Below, in pieces: positions 2,211 through 10,902 of a DNA stretch of 10,902 bases. A program made the translations under genes and the position numbers. This DNA comes from Paludibacter sp. (GTDB lineage: Bacteria; Bacteroidota; Bacteroidia; Bacteroidales; Paludibacteraceae): contig JAITXR010000296.1 in NCBI GenBank assembly GCA_031284665.1, positions 1 to 10,902 of the forward strand. Direction: 5' to 3'. How positions within the stretch are numbered: the stretch's first letter is position 1; the number at the start of each line of letters is the position of its first letter. The notes beneath the pieces were generated by a model, which was not told the DNA's origin, searched no databases, and worked only from the letters and a program-made list of their open reading frames with translations.

Positions 2211-2272
2211 GATAATGATAAATGATAAATGATAAATGGTTAATGAAAAACTACTAATTAGGAAACTATTCA
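2211..2272. repeat. Heptamer repeats plus dispersed motif next to the mutase stop codon
   Basis: Three perfect gataaat units occupy 2217-2237, preceded by a 6-base variant and followed by ggttaat (2238-2244). Then comes ctactaattag (2251-2261) and, one base on, aaactattca (2263-2272), ten bases from the stop codon of the minus-strand mutase gene. Read in that gene's direction it gives tgaatagttt then ctaattagtag then ttcattaacc, the same order of motifs as after the trmB stop codon. Confidence 0.75.
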
Positions 2273-5819: not shown

Positions 5820-5897
5820 CACGAAATAGAGCAAAGAAAAATGTGCTAATAAACAATGAGGCAATTAAGAAATTAAGAAATGTAAAAATTGACAAAA

Positions 5898-6032
5898 CTA
5901 CTAATTAGGTAACTTTTCAAACTATTCAAATCTTCAAACTTCTCTAACTTCTATCTTCTTTAACTTTACGAACTTTATGAATTTTATAACTTCTTTAACT
6001 TCCATCTTCTAACTTCTATCTTCTATTAAATT
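5898..6032. repeat. Repeat-filled trmB leader ending at the start codon
   Basis: It starts with ctactaattag (5898-5908) and aaactattca (5919-5928), both shared with the repeat next to the mutase gene. A loose 9-base tandem follows (acttttcaa, actattcaa). Five in-phase 7-mers come next: ttcttta, acttcca, tcttcta, acttcta, tcttcta (5991-6025). The next 7 bases, ttaaatt, end directly at ATG 6033. The 7-mers are the reverse complement of the TAGAAGA units found after trmB. There is no Shine-Dalgarno sequence. Confidence 0.75.
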
Positions 6033-6776
6033 ATGAGTAAAAATAAATTGACAAAATTTGCCGAAATGGAGGCTTTCCCGAATGTGTTCCAATGTTCTGC
6101 TCAGCAGTTGCAGCAGGAAGGGATGCGTTATCCGATGCGCGGCAAGTGGAACGAAAAGTTTTTTGGCAACAGCAATCCCATAATTCTCGAACTTGGCTGT
6201 GGCAGAGGTGAATACAGTGTTGCAATGGCTGAAATGTTTGCCGACAAAAACTTTATCGGGGTAGATATTAAAGGGGCAAGAATGTGGGCTGGCGCAAAAC
6301 GCGGGCTGGAAAATGGATTGAAAAACGTGGCGTTCCTGCGTACAAATATCGAAATGCTCGGATATTTTTTTGCCGAAAACGAGGTGAGCGAAATCTGGCT
6401 TACCTTCCCCGACCCGCAAATGAAAAAAACCACGAAACGGCTGACTTCAATTCGTTTTTTGGAAATTTACAGCCGTTTTATGGTCGATGGCGGCTTAATT
6501 CACCTTAAAACCGACAGTAATTTTATGTTTTCGTACACGCGAGCAATGATTGAAAAAAATCAATTTTTACCCCATTGCACAATCGATAATATTTACAGCG
6601 CAGAGCATAATTTTCCTCTGTTAAATATCAAAACTTACTACGAGCAGCAGTGGTTGGCGCGGGGTATCGACATTAAATACCTGAATTTTGCTTTACCCCG
6701 CAAAGCGGTTTACAGCGAGCCTGAAATCGAAATCGAAAAGGATACTTATCGAAGTTTTGGGCGGAATTTGATTTAG
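6033..6776 (+). CDS. trmB: tRNA (guanine-N7-)-methyltransferase
   Basis: A 247-residue SAM-dependent enzyme that makes 7-methylguanosine at position 46 of the tRNA variable loop. The Rossmann SAM-binding motif is ELGCGRGEYS (53-62), followed by the acidic residue of GVDIKG (Asp78). The family motif WLTFPDPQMKKTTKRL (122-137) includes the FPDP loop. The KTD motif is at 159-161 and the C-terminal TYYEQQW near 201-207. Length is normal. An in-frame TAA at 6027-6029, two codons before the ATG, excludes an earlier start. MSKNKLTKFAEMEAFPNVFQ is the usual N-terminus for Bacteroidales TrmB. It is a single-gene unit; both flanks are 7-bp repeat arrays in opposite orientation, and one array starts on the stop codon itself. 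Confidence 0.95.
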   Translation: MSKNKLTKFAEMEAFPNVFQCSAQQLQQEGMRYPMRGKWNEKFFGNSNPIILELGCGRGEYSVAMAEMFADKNFIGVDIKGARMWAGAKRGLENGLKNVAFLRTNIEMLGYFFAENEVSEIWLTFPDPQMKKTTKRLTSIRFLEIYSRFMVDGGLIHLKTDSNFMFSYTRAMIEKNQFLPHCTIDNIYSAEHNFPLLNIKTYYEQQWLARGIDIKYLNFALPRKAVYSEPEIEIEKDTYRSFGRNLI

Positions 6777-6880
6777 TGAATAGTTTATAGTTTATAGTTT
6801 GTAGAAGATAGAAGATAGAAGATAGAAGATGGAAGATAGAAGTTAGAAGTTAGAAGATAGAAGTTAGAGAAGATAGAAGA
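6774..6880. repeat. Heptanucleotide array starting on the trmB stop codon (TAGTTTA/TAGAAGA)
   Basis: Thirteen in-phase 7-mers run from 6774 to 6864: tagtgaa, tagttta x2, tagtttg, tagaaga x4, tggaaga, tagaagt x2, tagaaga, tagaagt. A 9-base variant (tagagaaga) and one more tagaaga follow to 6880. The first TAG is the trmB stop codon. Two different motifs share one uninterrupted 7-base phase, all units beginning TAG or TGG. The array is non-coding on both strands. Confidence 0.9.
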
Positions 6881-6883
6881 TAT

Positions 6884-6953
6884 CTAATTAGTAGTCTTTT
6901 CATTAACCATTGACCATTGACCATTAACCACTATATAGTAGTCTTTTCATTAA
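6884..6953. repeat. Dispersed motif copies with a four-unit ATTRACC array between them
   Basis: The 17-base sequence agtagtcttttcattaa occurs at 6890-6906 and again at 6937-6953. The first copy is preceded by ctaatt, completing ctaattagtag (6884-6894). Between them lie four in-phase 7-mers, attaacc, attgacc, attgacc, attaacc (6902-6929). Further relatives are at 2238-2261 (reverse strand) and 7131-7144. Confidence 0.8.
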
Positions 6954-6995
6954 TCACTAAGTGAACAACAACAAACAACTGTTTCTACCAACATA

Positions 6996-7034
6996 TTGTC
7001 CCCCGACATATCGGGGCAGGCTCTAACGGGACAA
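6996..7034. repeat. Nested hairpin between trmB and rarA
   Basis: The inner hairpin ccccga-cata-tcgggg (7001-7016) is enclosed by the outer complementary pair ttgtccc (6996-7002) and gggacaa (7028-7034); only one of the two can form fully at a time. Six A follow. It may end transcription coming from trmB, or be another dispersed repeat. Confidence 0.45.
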
Positions 7035-7085
7035 AAAATCAGTAAATTTTCAACTCTTGATTCGCATTATTAATAAAAAAGTATT

Positions 7086-7093
7086 TATATTTG
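7086..7093 (+). promoter_or_regulatory. Candidate -7 promoter element for rarA
   Basis: TATATTTG matches TAnnTTTG. The nearest upstream TTG (7057-7059) is 26 bases away, longer than the usual 19-21, so the match is incomplete. If used, the rarA leader would be about 155 bases and would contain the whole 15-unit heptamer array. Confidence 0.3.
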
Positions 7094-7130
7094 ACAAAAA
7101 AATAATTCAGTGATTAGTGATGAACAACCA

Positions 7131-7257
7131 AATTAGTAGTTTTTCACTCTCCACTATAAACTATAAACTACAAACTATTAACTATAAACTATTAACTATA
7201 AATTATTAACTATAAACTATTAACTATAAACTATAAACTATAAACTATTAACTATCT
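7131..7257. repeat. Fifteen-unit heptanucleotide array (ACTATWA) ending at the rarA start codon
   Basis: After a copy of the dispersed motif (aattagtagttttt, 7131-7144) and cactctcc (7145-7152), fifteen 7-mers run without a phase break from 7153 to 7257. Eight are actataa and four are actatta; there is one each of actacaa, attatta and a final actatct. ATG 7258 follows directly. The array contains in-frame TAA codons and no ribosome binding site, so it is a non-coding leader. The unit is the reverse complement, circularly shifted, of the TAGTTTA units after trmB. Confidence 0.93.
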
Positions 7258-8550: not shown

Positions 8551-8640
8551 AACAAAAACATATTAATGTAAATAGTAGTGATGCACTAAATTTTAAAATT
8601 TTCTTGTAATTAATTGATATTAAATATATTATAAGCGTTC

Positions 8641-8672
8641 TTTGATTTTTGGGCTTGAAAAAAGTAATTTTG
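8641..8672 (+). promoter_or_regulatory. Transposase promoter (TTTG-N20-TAATTTTG)
   Basis: TTTG at 8641-8644 and TAATTTTG at 8665-8672 are separated by 20 bases, the best complete Bacteroidota promoter in the window. Transcription would start near 8679, leaving a leader of about 26 bases to ATG 8705. A possible TTG start at 8642 lies inside the -33 box and is therefore excluded. Confidence 0.65.
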
Positions 8673-8704
8673 CGGTTTTTTATTCATTAAACCACAAACT
8701 TATT

Positions 8705-9880
8705 ATGTATTCAGGTAAATATGTATTTTCTCAGGTATTATCATTTGTTGATAAGTACGAGTTCAACAAGTGCGTAAAGCGCTATAACGGCAACAAACAC
8801 AATCGCGGTTTCGACTGTTGGAATCAATTTGTTCAATTACTCTTTGGTCAGTTGGCTTCGTTGAATTCTCTGCGGTCAATTAGCACTTGTTTGAAAGCAC
8901 ATAGTCATCAGTTGTGCCATTTAGGAATAAATAAATGGGTTGATTCGTCCGTTCTTTCGCGTGCCAATGAGAGCCGTAACAGTCAGATTTTCGCCGATTT
9001 CGTTACATATTTAATGTCGCTTGTTCGTCCTTTGTATGCCAATAGTTCCATTCCCAAAATTGATATTGAGAATGAAATCTACGCATTAGATTCAACCAGC
9101 ATTTCGGTGAGTATTAATCTTTGCACTTGGGCAGAAGGAAAATATTCTCGCGGGGCGGTCAAAATGCACACTTTGCTGAATTTGCGAGGCTGCATAACCG
9201 AATTTATTCTTATCACAGACGGCAAATGGCACGATAGCAATGCGTTGGATGTCATTCCGTTTTACGCCAATGCCATTTATCTGATGAACAAAGCGTATGT
9301 TGATTTTGAGGCGTTGTTTCGGATAAATAATGCAGCTGCGTTTTTTGTAACAAGAGCAAAAACATCTATGCAATACAGAGTTATAGAGCAAAATTTCAAC
9401 ATTGACCAAAATACAGAATTGAGAACTGACAAAATAGTAGAACTGACCGTTGCTAAATCCAAAAAATTGTATCCGCAAAGACTGCGTTTAGTTGAGTTTT
9501 ATGACAGCCAAAACGACAATCTGTTGGTTTTTCTGACAAATAACTTTGATGTTTCAGCCTTTGAAGTTGCCAATTTGTATAAAAACCGTTGGCAAATAGA
9601 AGTTTTTTTCAAATGGCTAAAACAGAATCTGACTGTCAAAAAATTTTGGGGATACTCCGAAAATGCTGTTAAAACTCATTTATGGATGGCTGTTTGTTCA
9701 CATTTGCTTGTTGCATATATCAAGCAAATGGTCAAAAGTCAGCTCTCTATCCATGAAATTATGCAGATTTTAGGCACTTCGCTGTTTGACAAAACGCCAA
9801 TCAGGGAGCTGCTTACGGAAAATACAGATTTTCAAGTCATGAAAAATCAAAATGTCAAAGAACAATTATCTTTATTTTAG
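8705..9880 (+). CDS. IS4-family DDE transposase (DUF4372 N-terminal domain)
   Basis: A 391-residue cut-and-paste transposase. The N-terminal part (GKYVFSQVLSFVDKYEFNKCVKRY, then CWNQFVQLLFGQL) matches the DUF4372 domain usual in this IS4 branch. The catalytic RNase H-like domain shows Asp129 in YALDSTS, Asp200 in YVDFEALF and Glu299. The IS4 signature Y-(2)-R-(3)-E-(6)-K is perfect: Tyr292, Arg295, Glu299, Lys306 in YKNRWQIEVFFKWLK. The ATG at 8705 is chosen because the promoter covers an earlier TTG. The frame is uninterrupted and the C-terminus complete, so the enzyme looks functional. The stop TAG is 14 bases before the right terminal repeat. Confidence 0.95.
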   Translation: MYSGKYVFSQVLSFVDKYEFNKCVKRYNGNKHNRGFDCWNQFVQLLFGQLASLNSLRSISTCLKAHSHQLCHLGINKWVDSSVLSRANESRNSQIFADFVTYLMSLVRPLYANSSIPKIDIENEIYALDSTSISVSINLCTWAEGKYSRGAVKMHTLLNLRGCITEFILITDGKWHDSNALDVIPFYANAIYLMNKAYVDFEALFRINNAAAFFVTRAKTSMQYRVIEQNFNIDQNTELRTDKIVELTVAKSKKLYPQRLRLVEFYDSQNDNLLVFLTNNFDVSAFEVANLYKNRWQIEVFFKWLKQNLTVKKFWGYSENAVKTHLWMAVCSHLLVAYIKQMVKSQLSIHEIMQILGTSLFDKTPIRELLTENTDFQVMKNQNVKEQLSLF

Positions 9881-9913
9881 TTAAACCTATTAACAATTTA
9901 GTGCATCAGTAGT

Positions 9914-9934
9914 AATTATCAATTATCAATTAAT
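9914..9934. repeat. AATTATC heptamer repeats over the LRR gene stop codon
   Basis: Three in-phase 7-mers, aattatc, aattatc, aattaat, begin at the base after the right target duplication of the insertion sequence. They run across the stop codon (9926-9928) of the minus-strand LRR gene, so the array includes both the stop and the last codons of that gene. Confidence 0.75.
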
Positions 9935-10902
9935 AATGAATTTCCCCACGCTATCTCCTACCTTTACAAAATACACTCCTGCTGGTAATGCCGACACATT
10001 AATTGTTGCGCCGTAATTCGTAATTTGTAATTCGTAATTGCCAACCGTGCGCCCTTGCAAATCTGTAATTATTACCGTATTTACATCTCCTTTTTCGGGG
10101 AGGCTTGGGGAGGTGATTGTTACAAAATCGGTGGCAGGGTTGGGGAATATTTGCAACCTCGTGTTTGCCTGCACATCGGCAATGGCGGATGCGCCGCCTA
10201 CCACATTCATTTCTTTCCATACATCGGCAGCGTTGTAGGTGGCTACGGCGGATGTGGGTACGGCAAGGGTAATGGCGGATAGCGTTACATCATCAAAAAC
10301 ATCCACTCCAAGTGTGGGAGGTGTTGTGGTAAGTGCGCTGATAGATGTTAAAGCGCTGCAACCGGCAAAAGCACTCTCTCCAATAGCACTAAGCGAAGTA
10401 CCAAGGCGAAGCGAAGTTAAACCTTCGCAATACAAAAAAGCCCTCTCTCCAATAGTCGTTACCGAATTGGGAATAGTTACTGATGTTAAACCTTTACAAT
10501 TACCAAAAGTTAGATATTCAATAGAGCTTACCGAATTGGGAATAGTTAATGATGTTAAACCTGTGCAATTCAAAAAAGCAGCCGTTCCAAGAGTCGTTAC
10601 CGAATTGGGAATGGTTAATGCGCCTGTTAAACCGATGCAATTAGCAAAAGCGTTATTTCCAATAGTCGTTACCGAATTGGGAATAGTTATCGACGGTAAA
10701 GCGATGCACGCTCGAAAAGCCCTTTCGCCAATAGTCGTTACCGAATTAGGAATAGTCGCCGAAGTTACATTGATGTGCTCACTAAAAGCATTGGTTCCAA
10801 TAGCCGTGATGCCGTTTTGAATAACAATGGTGGTTATATCCGTAATATCCGCAATCCACGGCAAATCATAAGGCGACGTGTAATCGGGCATTGCGCCTGT
10901 TC
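9926..10902 (-). CDS. BspA-like leucine-rich repeat protein with T9SS sorting domain, 5' end outside window
   Basis: A secreted, probably surface-bound or released protein. The frame runs off the right edge (325 full codons visible). Counting from the internal Met encoded at 10891, seven LRR_5/BspA-type units of 23-24 residues start around 24, 47, 70, 94, 117, 140 and 163, with consensus LTSxTIPNSVTTIGxxAFxNC. A cap with TTPPTLG and VPTSAVATYNAADVWKEM follows (190-228). From about 245 to 321 lies a type A T9SS C-terminal sorting domain: LQIFPNPATDFVTI, ITDLQGRTV, NVSALPAGVYFVKV, then KFIIN at the end. The signal peptide and N-terminal part are missing. BspA repeats often mediate adhesion, but no ligand can be inferred. 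NYELQITNYG inside the sorting domain is encoded by a 7-base tandem repeat. The TGA stop lies in another heptamer array next to the insertion sequence. Confidence 0.92.
   Translation of the reverse strand, partial: TGAMPDYTSPYDLPWIADITDITTIVIQNGITAIGTNAFSEHINVTSATIPNSVTTIGERAFRACIALPSITIPNSVTTIGNNAFANCIGLTGALTIPNSVTTLGTAAFLNCTGLTSLTIPNSVSSIEYLTFGNCKGLTSVTIPNSVTTIGERAFLYCEGLTSLRLGTSLSAIGESAFAGCSALTSISALTTTPPTLGVDVFDDVTLSAITLAVPTSAVATYNAADVWKEMNVVGGASAIADVQANTRLQIFPNPATDFVTITSPSLPEKGDVNTVIITDLQGRTVGNYELQITNYGATINVSALPAGVYFVKVGDSVGKFIIN
10013..10040. repeat. In-frame heptamer array inside the T9SS sorting domain
   Basis: Four in-phase 7-mers, gtaattc, gtaattt, gtaattc, gtaattg, lie within the coding region of the LRR protein. 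Because 7 is not a multiple of 3, consecutive units are read in different frames, giving NYELQITNY (residues 285-293). They fall between the conserved ITDLQGRTV and NVSALPAGVYFVKV blocks, where a loop or short strand is expected. Confidence 0.8.

Follow-up and report, generated by a model that had tools for sequence, protein, structure and literature searches.

Tandem repeats with a 7-bp period and changing words often occupy gaps between genes of this Paludibacter genome, and many of them lie near a dispersed core of about 24 nt, to which they stand in one register and with which they recur as shared stretches at different loci. The period is real, extends beyond this genome, and is largely known already; the core-associated mosaic is the new part. 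We favor, at slightly better than even odds (roughly 0.55), an explanation in which slippage in 7-nt steps changes array length and recombination copies modules of core and array from gap to gap.

The stretch of DNA analyzed, here called the window, is 10,902 nt long and is contig C134 of a 2.27-Mb assembly of 419 contigs that is 82% complete. An initial annotation made from the letters alone had named seven places with in-phase 7-mers, and Tandem Repeats Finder reported all seven at period 7. A lag scan found six period-7 arrays in the window and none at periods 2 to 6 or 8 to 11, and 20 first-order Markov copies of the window gave a mean of 0.0 arrays at period 7. The array before trmB, placed at 5991-6025 by the annotation, was weaker and appeared in the lag scan only at lag 14. 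The arrays, the copies of the core, and an insertion sequence are distributed in the window as follows.

2214..2250, + strand: heptamer array, GATAAAT then GGTTAAT (G-type, with G and little or no C), where two genes converge on a gap (Tandem Repeats Finder, lag scan)
2246..2259, − strand: core copy, 14 bases exact, overlapping the end of the GATAAAT/GGTTAAT array
5893..5906, − strand: core copy with one mismatch, AACTATTCA-type 8-9-mers then following on the + strand
5992..6026, + strand: heptamer array TCTTCTA/ACTTCTA (C-type) (Tandem Repeats Finder, periods 14 and 7)
6780..6804, + strand: heptamer array TAGTTTA, beginning 3 bp past the end of the trmB open reading frame (ORF) at 6776 (Tandem Repeats Finder)
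6802..6882, + strand: heptamer array TAGAAGA/TAGAAGT, in the phase of the preceding TAGTTTA array (Tandem Repeats Finder, lag scan)
6886..6899, + strand: core copy, 14 bases exact
6901..6930, + strand: heptamer array ATTAACC/ATTGACC, in register with the 3′ end of the core at 6886..6899
6933..6946, + strand: second core-like copy in tandem, two mismatches
7131..7144, + strand: core copy, 14 bases exact
7153..7255, + strand: heptamer array ACTATAA/ACTATTA, 14.7 units (Tandem Repeats Finder, lag scan)
8575..9912, + strand: DUF4372/DDE_Tnp_1 insertion sequence between GTAG direct repeats
9914..9932, + strand: heptamer array AATTATC, directly adjoining the insertion sequence (Tandem Repeats Finder, lag scan)
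10012..10039, + strand: heptamer array GTAATTC, within a gene whose product carries a type IX secretion sorting domain (Tandem Repeats Finder)

The arrays of the window are mainly in gaps between genes, and one is inside a gene. The convergent gap that holds the first array adjoins a phosphoglucomutase-family gene, the TCTTCTA/ACTTCTA array ends 6 bp upstream of the start codon of trmB (6033; match to PF02390), and the ACTATAA/ACTATTA array ends 2 bp before the start codon of rarA (7258; match to MgsA_C). The sorting-domain gene around the GTAATTC array runs from 9926 to 10891 on the minus strand; that array is in frame and encodes NYELQITNY in the sorting-domain region of what is a BspA-type leucine-rich-repeat gene. 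A two-mismatch core match at 9594, inside the transposase gene, was left out of the list as chance, and no Rfam family matched the window at the gathering threshold. Separately, REP-like palindromes, GTAGAGACGTGGCATGCCGCGTCTCTAC and a variant, occur in the window at 1784-1811 and 2081-2108, and a palindrome related to GTAGAGACGTGGCATGCCGCGTCTCTAC adjoins cores in loci L023, L163, and L192.

Two motifs can follow one another without a break in phase, as had been noted for 6774-6864: the lag scan returned 6780-6868 as one unbroken period-7 segment spanning both. The motifs had also been described as different and unrelated, and it holds that many motifs share one period. Relatedness was underestimated, however: ACTATAA, once rotated, is the reverse complement of TAGTTTA, and reverse complementation likewise relates TAGAAGA to TCTTCTA and GGTTAAT to ATTAACC (all read from the sequence). 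With three motif pairs reverse-complementary, the vocabulary is smaller than the initial annotation supposed; these pairs and the dispersed core near many arrays had both been overlooked.

Period 7 stood out sharply outside the window as well. In 35 of the genome's own contigs (168 kb), picked by index, 14 arrays were found at period 7, none at any of periods 4, 5, and 6, and three each at periods 8 and 9; the 10 and 6 arrays at periods 14 and 21 may partly duplicate those at period 7. Ten order-3 Markov copies of this sample gave a mean of 0.0 at period 7, and 13 of the 14 arrays were outside ORFs, though ORFs make up 86% of the sampled DNA. A larger, core-enriched body of the genome's DNA (289 kb) held 83 period-7 arrays in 22 motif classes, a number given without a chance expectation, and one class accounted for 25 arrays; among the 14 of 22 classes listed, the commonest include AAAATGT, AACCATT, and AATCACT. 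The same peak appeared in 1.23 Mb of sequence surrounding rarA at 80 named Bacteroidales loci: 24 loci held 47 arrays at period 7, 39 of them outside coding regions, whereas period 6 gave 3 arrays and period 8 gave 9. Among named sequences, the closest rarA relatives belong to metagenome-assembled Bacteroidales genomes, many of which bear the name Paludibacter. Thus, the claim of a period fixed at 7 over many motifs is borne out, and the peak is confined neither to the window nor to this genome.

The arrays are AT-rich, as they would be if chance and AT-rich low complexity alone produced them, but Markov copies that keep local composition gave means of only 0.0 to 0.2 arrays at periods 7 to 9. 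Moreover, identical scoring of 79 viral contigs (782 kb) found a single period-7 array, and this near-empty control indicates that the method does not create the peak. We regard chance and low complexity as having essentially no claim as the whole explanation.

Relatives are not uniformly endowed with period-7 arrays. A set of 26 loci around trmB in relatives (95 kb), with trmB at 61% identity or less, held none; the 177-amino-acid protein next to trmB was absent from 30 relatives, and none of the window's other genes adjoined rarA in the flanks of the 80 loci. A second genome, G072, had 7 period-7 arrays, all at its five array sites and none in four other contigs, and no nonperiodic 15-mer was common to three of its nine stretches, parts of which read N. 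ATTAACC was considered as a shared ancient word and set aside, as arrays of it occurred in 10 of 119 genomes of the order, including this one, a modest excess over 5 of 119 for a reversed control. As a separate observation, period 22 was also enriched in the named loci, with 33 arrays in 21 loci, 2 of them in ORFs; the twelve examples listed have the look of direct repeats with spacers, situated between genes.

A preference of bacterial simple repeats for seven bases has precedent. According to PMC4692102 and PMC4679880, Mrazek and colleagues reported in 2007 that heptamers outnumbered every other class in the majority of the genomes they studied and suggested that DNA polymerase makes contact with a stretch of 7 nt. 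An intergenic heptamer excess is given for Xanthomonas and Nostoc (PMC4692102). The initial annotation had excluded ordinary slippage on the ground that it would not favor one period across unrelated motifs, a position that the polymerase-contact proposal, as relayed in those papers, does not support. It had also known of no equivalent in Bacteroidota, but MacGregor (2015) had published TAACTGA heptamer repeats from Beggiatoaceae, from cyanobacteria, and from five Bacteroidetes that include Paludibacter, with some of the repeats lying beside other heptamers and often near start codons (PMC4679880). That paper was the sole match in a full-text search for heptamer repeats in Bacteroidetes. In the first step of the explanation we favor, replication slippage with a preferred 7-nt step would lengthen, shorten, and locally homogenize arrays, and the preference would be a property of the replication machinery, as proposed earlier in print. 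A smooth slippage curve would not be expected to give the steps seen at periods 6, 7, and 8, namely, 0, 14, and 3 in the index sample and 3, 47, and 9 in the named loci.

The words themselves obey a further rule. Of the 47 heptamer units in the 80 named loci, 44 lacked G or lacked C, where 28.8 (standard deviation, 2.7) would be expected from non-array, noncoding heptamers of equal GC count, with arrays taken as independent; the proportion in this genome was 73 of 86. Plain slippage does not predict words that avoid G and C together, and the rule therefore counts against the explanation that we otherwise prefer. It is a constraint for any mechanism of array origin.

One could suppose instead that the mosaics are regulatory, with G-free C-type arrays before starts and C-poor G-type arrays after stops either keeping untranslated RNA unstructured or binding a regulator. 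Such a role was proposed in 2015 by MacGregor for TAACTGA repeats before start codons (PMC4679880), and in co-directional gaps of this genome G-type arrays fell in the stop-side half in 17 of 22 cases and C-type arrays in the start-side half in 12 of 16. The 80 named loci did not follow the placement rule, however, the stop-side half holding 10 of 15 G-type and 3 of 4 C-type arrays, and for this reason we do not read it as general regulation. Moreover, the pattern in this genome may follow from the change of array type across the core, and cores have no uniform orientation: relative to co-directional genes, 36 run against and 14 run along, in a tally that includes several cores per locus. Regulation as a general role of the mosaics is not supported, and we hold it to be improbable.

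The core was first recognized as a recurring ATTAGTAGTYTTTTC around arrays. Its consensus block of about 24 nt, AGTTWCCWAATTAGTAGTYTTTTC, comes from 117 copies, scored on 117 of 136 core matches at no more than one mismatch once matches at contig ends and those lacking TAG had been dropped. The near-invariant parts are AATTAGTAGT and the TT after the Y. Conservation declines beyond roughly −8 on one side and +15 on the other. There is hardly any variation within the conserved part; the left half does vary, and position −1 is T in 51% and A in 45% of copies. A 15-base form with at most one mismatch occurred 133 times in the genome versus 0 for the reversed pattern, and a 16-base form with two mismatches occurred 166 times versus 14. 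Forty other genomes had at most 9 matches to the 15-base form, near their control level, and the strict form was found 32 times in this genome and 0 times in 392 other genomes of the order, a set with no other member of the genus. The copies collected numbered 124, at 72 loci, and none duplicated another over 50 bases; 6 of the 124 were inside ORFs, and 45 had no ORF on one side. Literature searches, which did not use the core sequence as a term, returned no description of the core.

Cores and arrays are loosely associated. In the index sample, 7 of the 14 period-7 arrays lay within 150 bp of a core, compared with 1.9% of random positions within 170 bp of one. Five contigs had been kept out of that sample: C35, C81, and C86, chosen originally for their cores, and C70 and C90, which satisfied the index rule and were left out because they were known to hold cores. 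Taken from single cores, the association is weaker and speaks against the favored explanation: clear period 7 within 42 nt was present in only 26 of 122 right flanks and absent from the other 96.

Arrays that follow the core do so in one register. Across 122 of the 124 right flanks, with those that contain a second core kept in, C stood at every seventh base counted from the last C of the core 337 times versus 200 times in the next phase, and the largest value in 2,000 rotations was 223. In the 26 flanks with clear arrays, the register phase held 108 C and the next phase 27. Because C is concentrated in one phase, arrays of words as different as CATTTTA, CATTGAC, CACTAAT, and CGTTTAC begin in one register. 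The fixed register could reflect either descent from one core-plus-unit ancestor or a process directed by the core. In a strong form of the second idea, the core would seed arrays, a process at its 3′ end (TTTTC) adding 7-nt steps outward in one register, with mostly G-free units on the outgoing strand and words that differ by locus. If true, seeding would make the core a sequence-directed generator of 7-nt steps rather than a site of passive slippage; we think it improbable.

Stretches of 128 to 174 bp that include core and arrays are common to different loci at 77 to 89% identity, figures taken from the 40 longest of 5,615 matches between core regions; one example is a TTTCGTGCCTTCGTCC-type stretch between two cores. 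We read these shared stretches as probable copies rather than as independent births. In the second step of the favored explanation, a core and its adjoining units would be copied as a module from one intergenic site to another, through recombination or through template switching between shared repeats. Such copying would be the reason that different loci have a small set of words in common, all of them in one register to the core.

A possible length step in an array is provided by contigs C119 and C208 (loci L008 and L014), in which a core-array mosaic leads from different upstream genes to a common start of the downstream gene, the upstream gene matching RBFA in one and Aminotran_1_2 in the other. 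The distance from the last core to the downstream gene is 99 bp in one and 120 bp in the other, a difference of 21 bp in the array. One contig has two core-to-core spacings of 41 and the other has a spacing of 47, and we read the difference of 6 as an additional 7-bp unit minus a single core base. This is a single pair from a metagenome assembly, and strain mixing, rearrangement at the repeat site, or a misjoin could account for it.

The core could instead be a tiny mobile element, comparable to the small dispersed repeats of Nostoc, moved in trans by an enzyme and preferring sites in or beside heptamer arrays. In favor of mobility, the core has 124 copies and a strict form private to this genome among the 393 searched; its conservation drops at the limits given above, 96 of 122 cores have no clear period-7 array directly to the right, and 24 spacings of 32 to 85 bp were found among same-strand neighboring cores less than 300 bp apart. 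The genome also has two Y1-type transposases, an enzyme class that invites comparison with REP/RAYT systems; the core is no strict palindrome, and other palindromes exist in the genome. Against mobility, the arrays on the two sides of a core, where both are present, usually differ by eye, which is not the look of an insertion that split a single continuous array. Nor is there a clear hairpin: the mean RNA folding energy of cores was −6.5 versus −5.3 for Markov shuffles, and 61% of the 124 were below the shuffle mean. No target duplication or empty site was seen among the genomes searched, which include none of the same genus. We consider a mobile core unlikely, while giving it more weight than either seeding or regulation, and return to slippage with module copying as the preferred reading.

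Three other ideas about the core were discarded. A strict palindrome, with TGAAAAG and CTTTTCA flanking CTAATTAG, did not fit the variable left half and the weak folding of the copies. Spread by a resident reverse transcriptase found no RVT_1 match in the genome (82% complete). Phage spread was set aside on 79 viral stretches with one core-like match each, judged to be chance without a computed expectation. Plasmid similarity searches returned no match or only short, weak ones.

In the third step of the favored explanation, other mobile DNA, namely, an insertion sequence, its 208-bp miniature relative, and palindromes of 16 to 20 bp, would land in the mosaics. The insertion sequence of the window spans 8579-9908, has 14-bp terminal inverted repeats at 8579-8592 and 9895-9908, and sits in a TAGTAG site, with GTAG on either side, beside the AATTATC array. 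Its terminal repeat, at no more than one mismatch, was found in one further place only, a 208-bp element on contig C321 (L317, 1501-1708) that lies between AAATTAGTAG and GTAGTAATGTAAAATG, has no ORF of at least 100 amino acids inside, and has a right end read by eye. TAGTAG, the site of both elements, occurs in the core, and both have GTAG on either side and heptamers adjoining, but with two of two cases this siting is suggestive only. Palindromes of the TCCCGATAGCTATCGGGA type interrupt heptamer arrays in L187 (about 1194) and L317 (about 1733), and others lie at module borders or in other gaps (L001, about 1601; L025, about 2768; L197, about 1076); two scans found 11 distinct palindrome places.

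Compared with the heptameric long simple sequence repeats of other bacteria, the arrays described here are alike in that heptamers are overrepresented relative to neighboring unit lengths and lie mostly outside coding regions. They differ in that the word changes within one phase, the words are few and recurrent, and half of the index-sample arrays adjoin a dispersed core. The passages of PMC4679880 that deal with TAACTGA repeats follow one word throughout and describe no dispersed core, and heptamers of Calothrix are mentioned in PMC4692102. In a 40-kb stretch of a plasmid from Sphaerospermopsis (Nostocales), we found at least 5 period-7 arrays, CCCCAAT among their words, and at most 2 arrays at any other period from 2 to 24. 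Heterocystous cyanobacteria carry heptamer repeats known as STRR, whose described words are CCCCAGT and its kin. Degenerate heptamers are common to both systems, whereas CCCCAGT-type words are not among the commonest classes listed here, and we know of no report of this core from the STRR systems of cyanobacteria.

For a short repeat that is dispersed among heptamer arrays, the closest parallel may be the small dispersed repeats (SDR) of Nostoc punctiforme, which Elhai in 2008 reportedly found to be about 21-27 nt long, often within heptamer arrays, and restricted in lineage. The likeness would lie in a dispersed repeat of about 24 nt associated with heptamer arrays, although 96 of 122 cores here are without a right-hand array. 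Some SDR families of Nostoc have a conserved hairpin with compensatory changes, whereas the core folds only weakly and shows no clear hairpin; the small TCCCGATAGCTATCGGGA palindromes embedded in heptamers also resemble small dispersed repeats. A further likeness is to the intergenic mosaics of Neisseria (dRS3/RS), in which short separator repeats alternate with repeated modules between genes and mobile DNA lands. Separators alternating with modules, and mobile DNA landing there, are features of the mosaics described here as well, but dRS3 is an inverted repeat, a description that the core does not strictly fit, and many of the modules here are heptamer arrays.

The question why simple repeats of bacteria favor exactly seven bases goes back to a 2007 publication, as PMC4692102 and PMC4679880 cite it. 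A core with more than 100 copies in one genome makes the origin of seven-base repeats easier to study, and arrays whose register is set relative to a known short sequence offer defined start points from which to follow how they arise and grow. The genome also suggests that heptamer arrays are paired with a small dispersed repeat in Bacteroidota, as in Nostoc.
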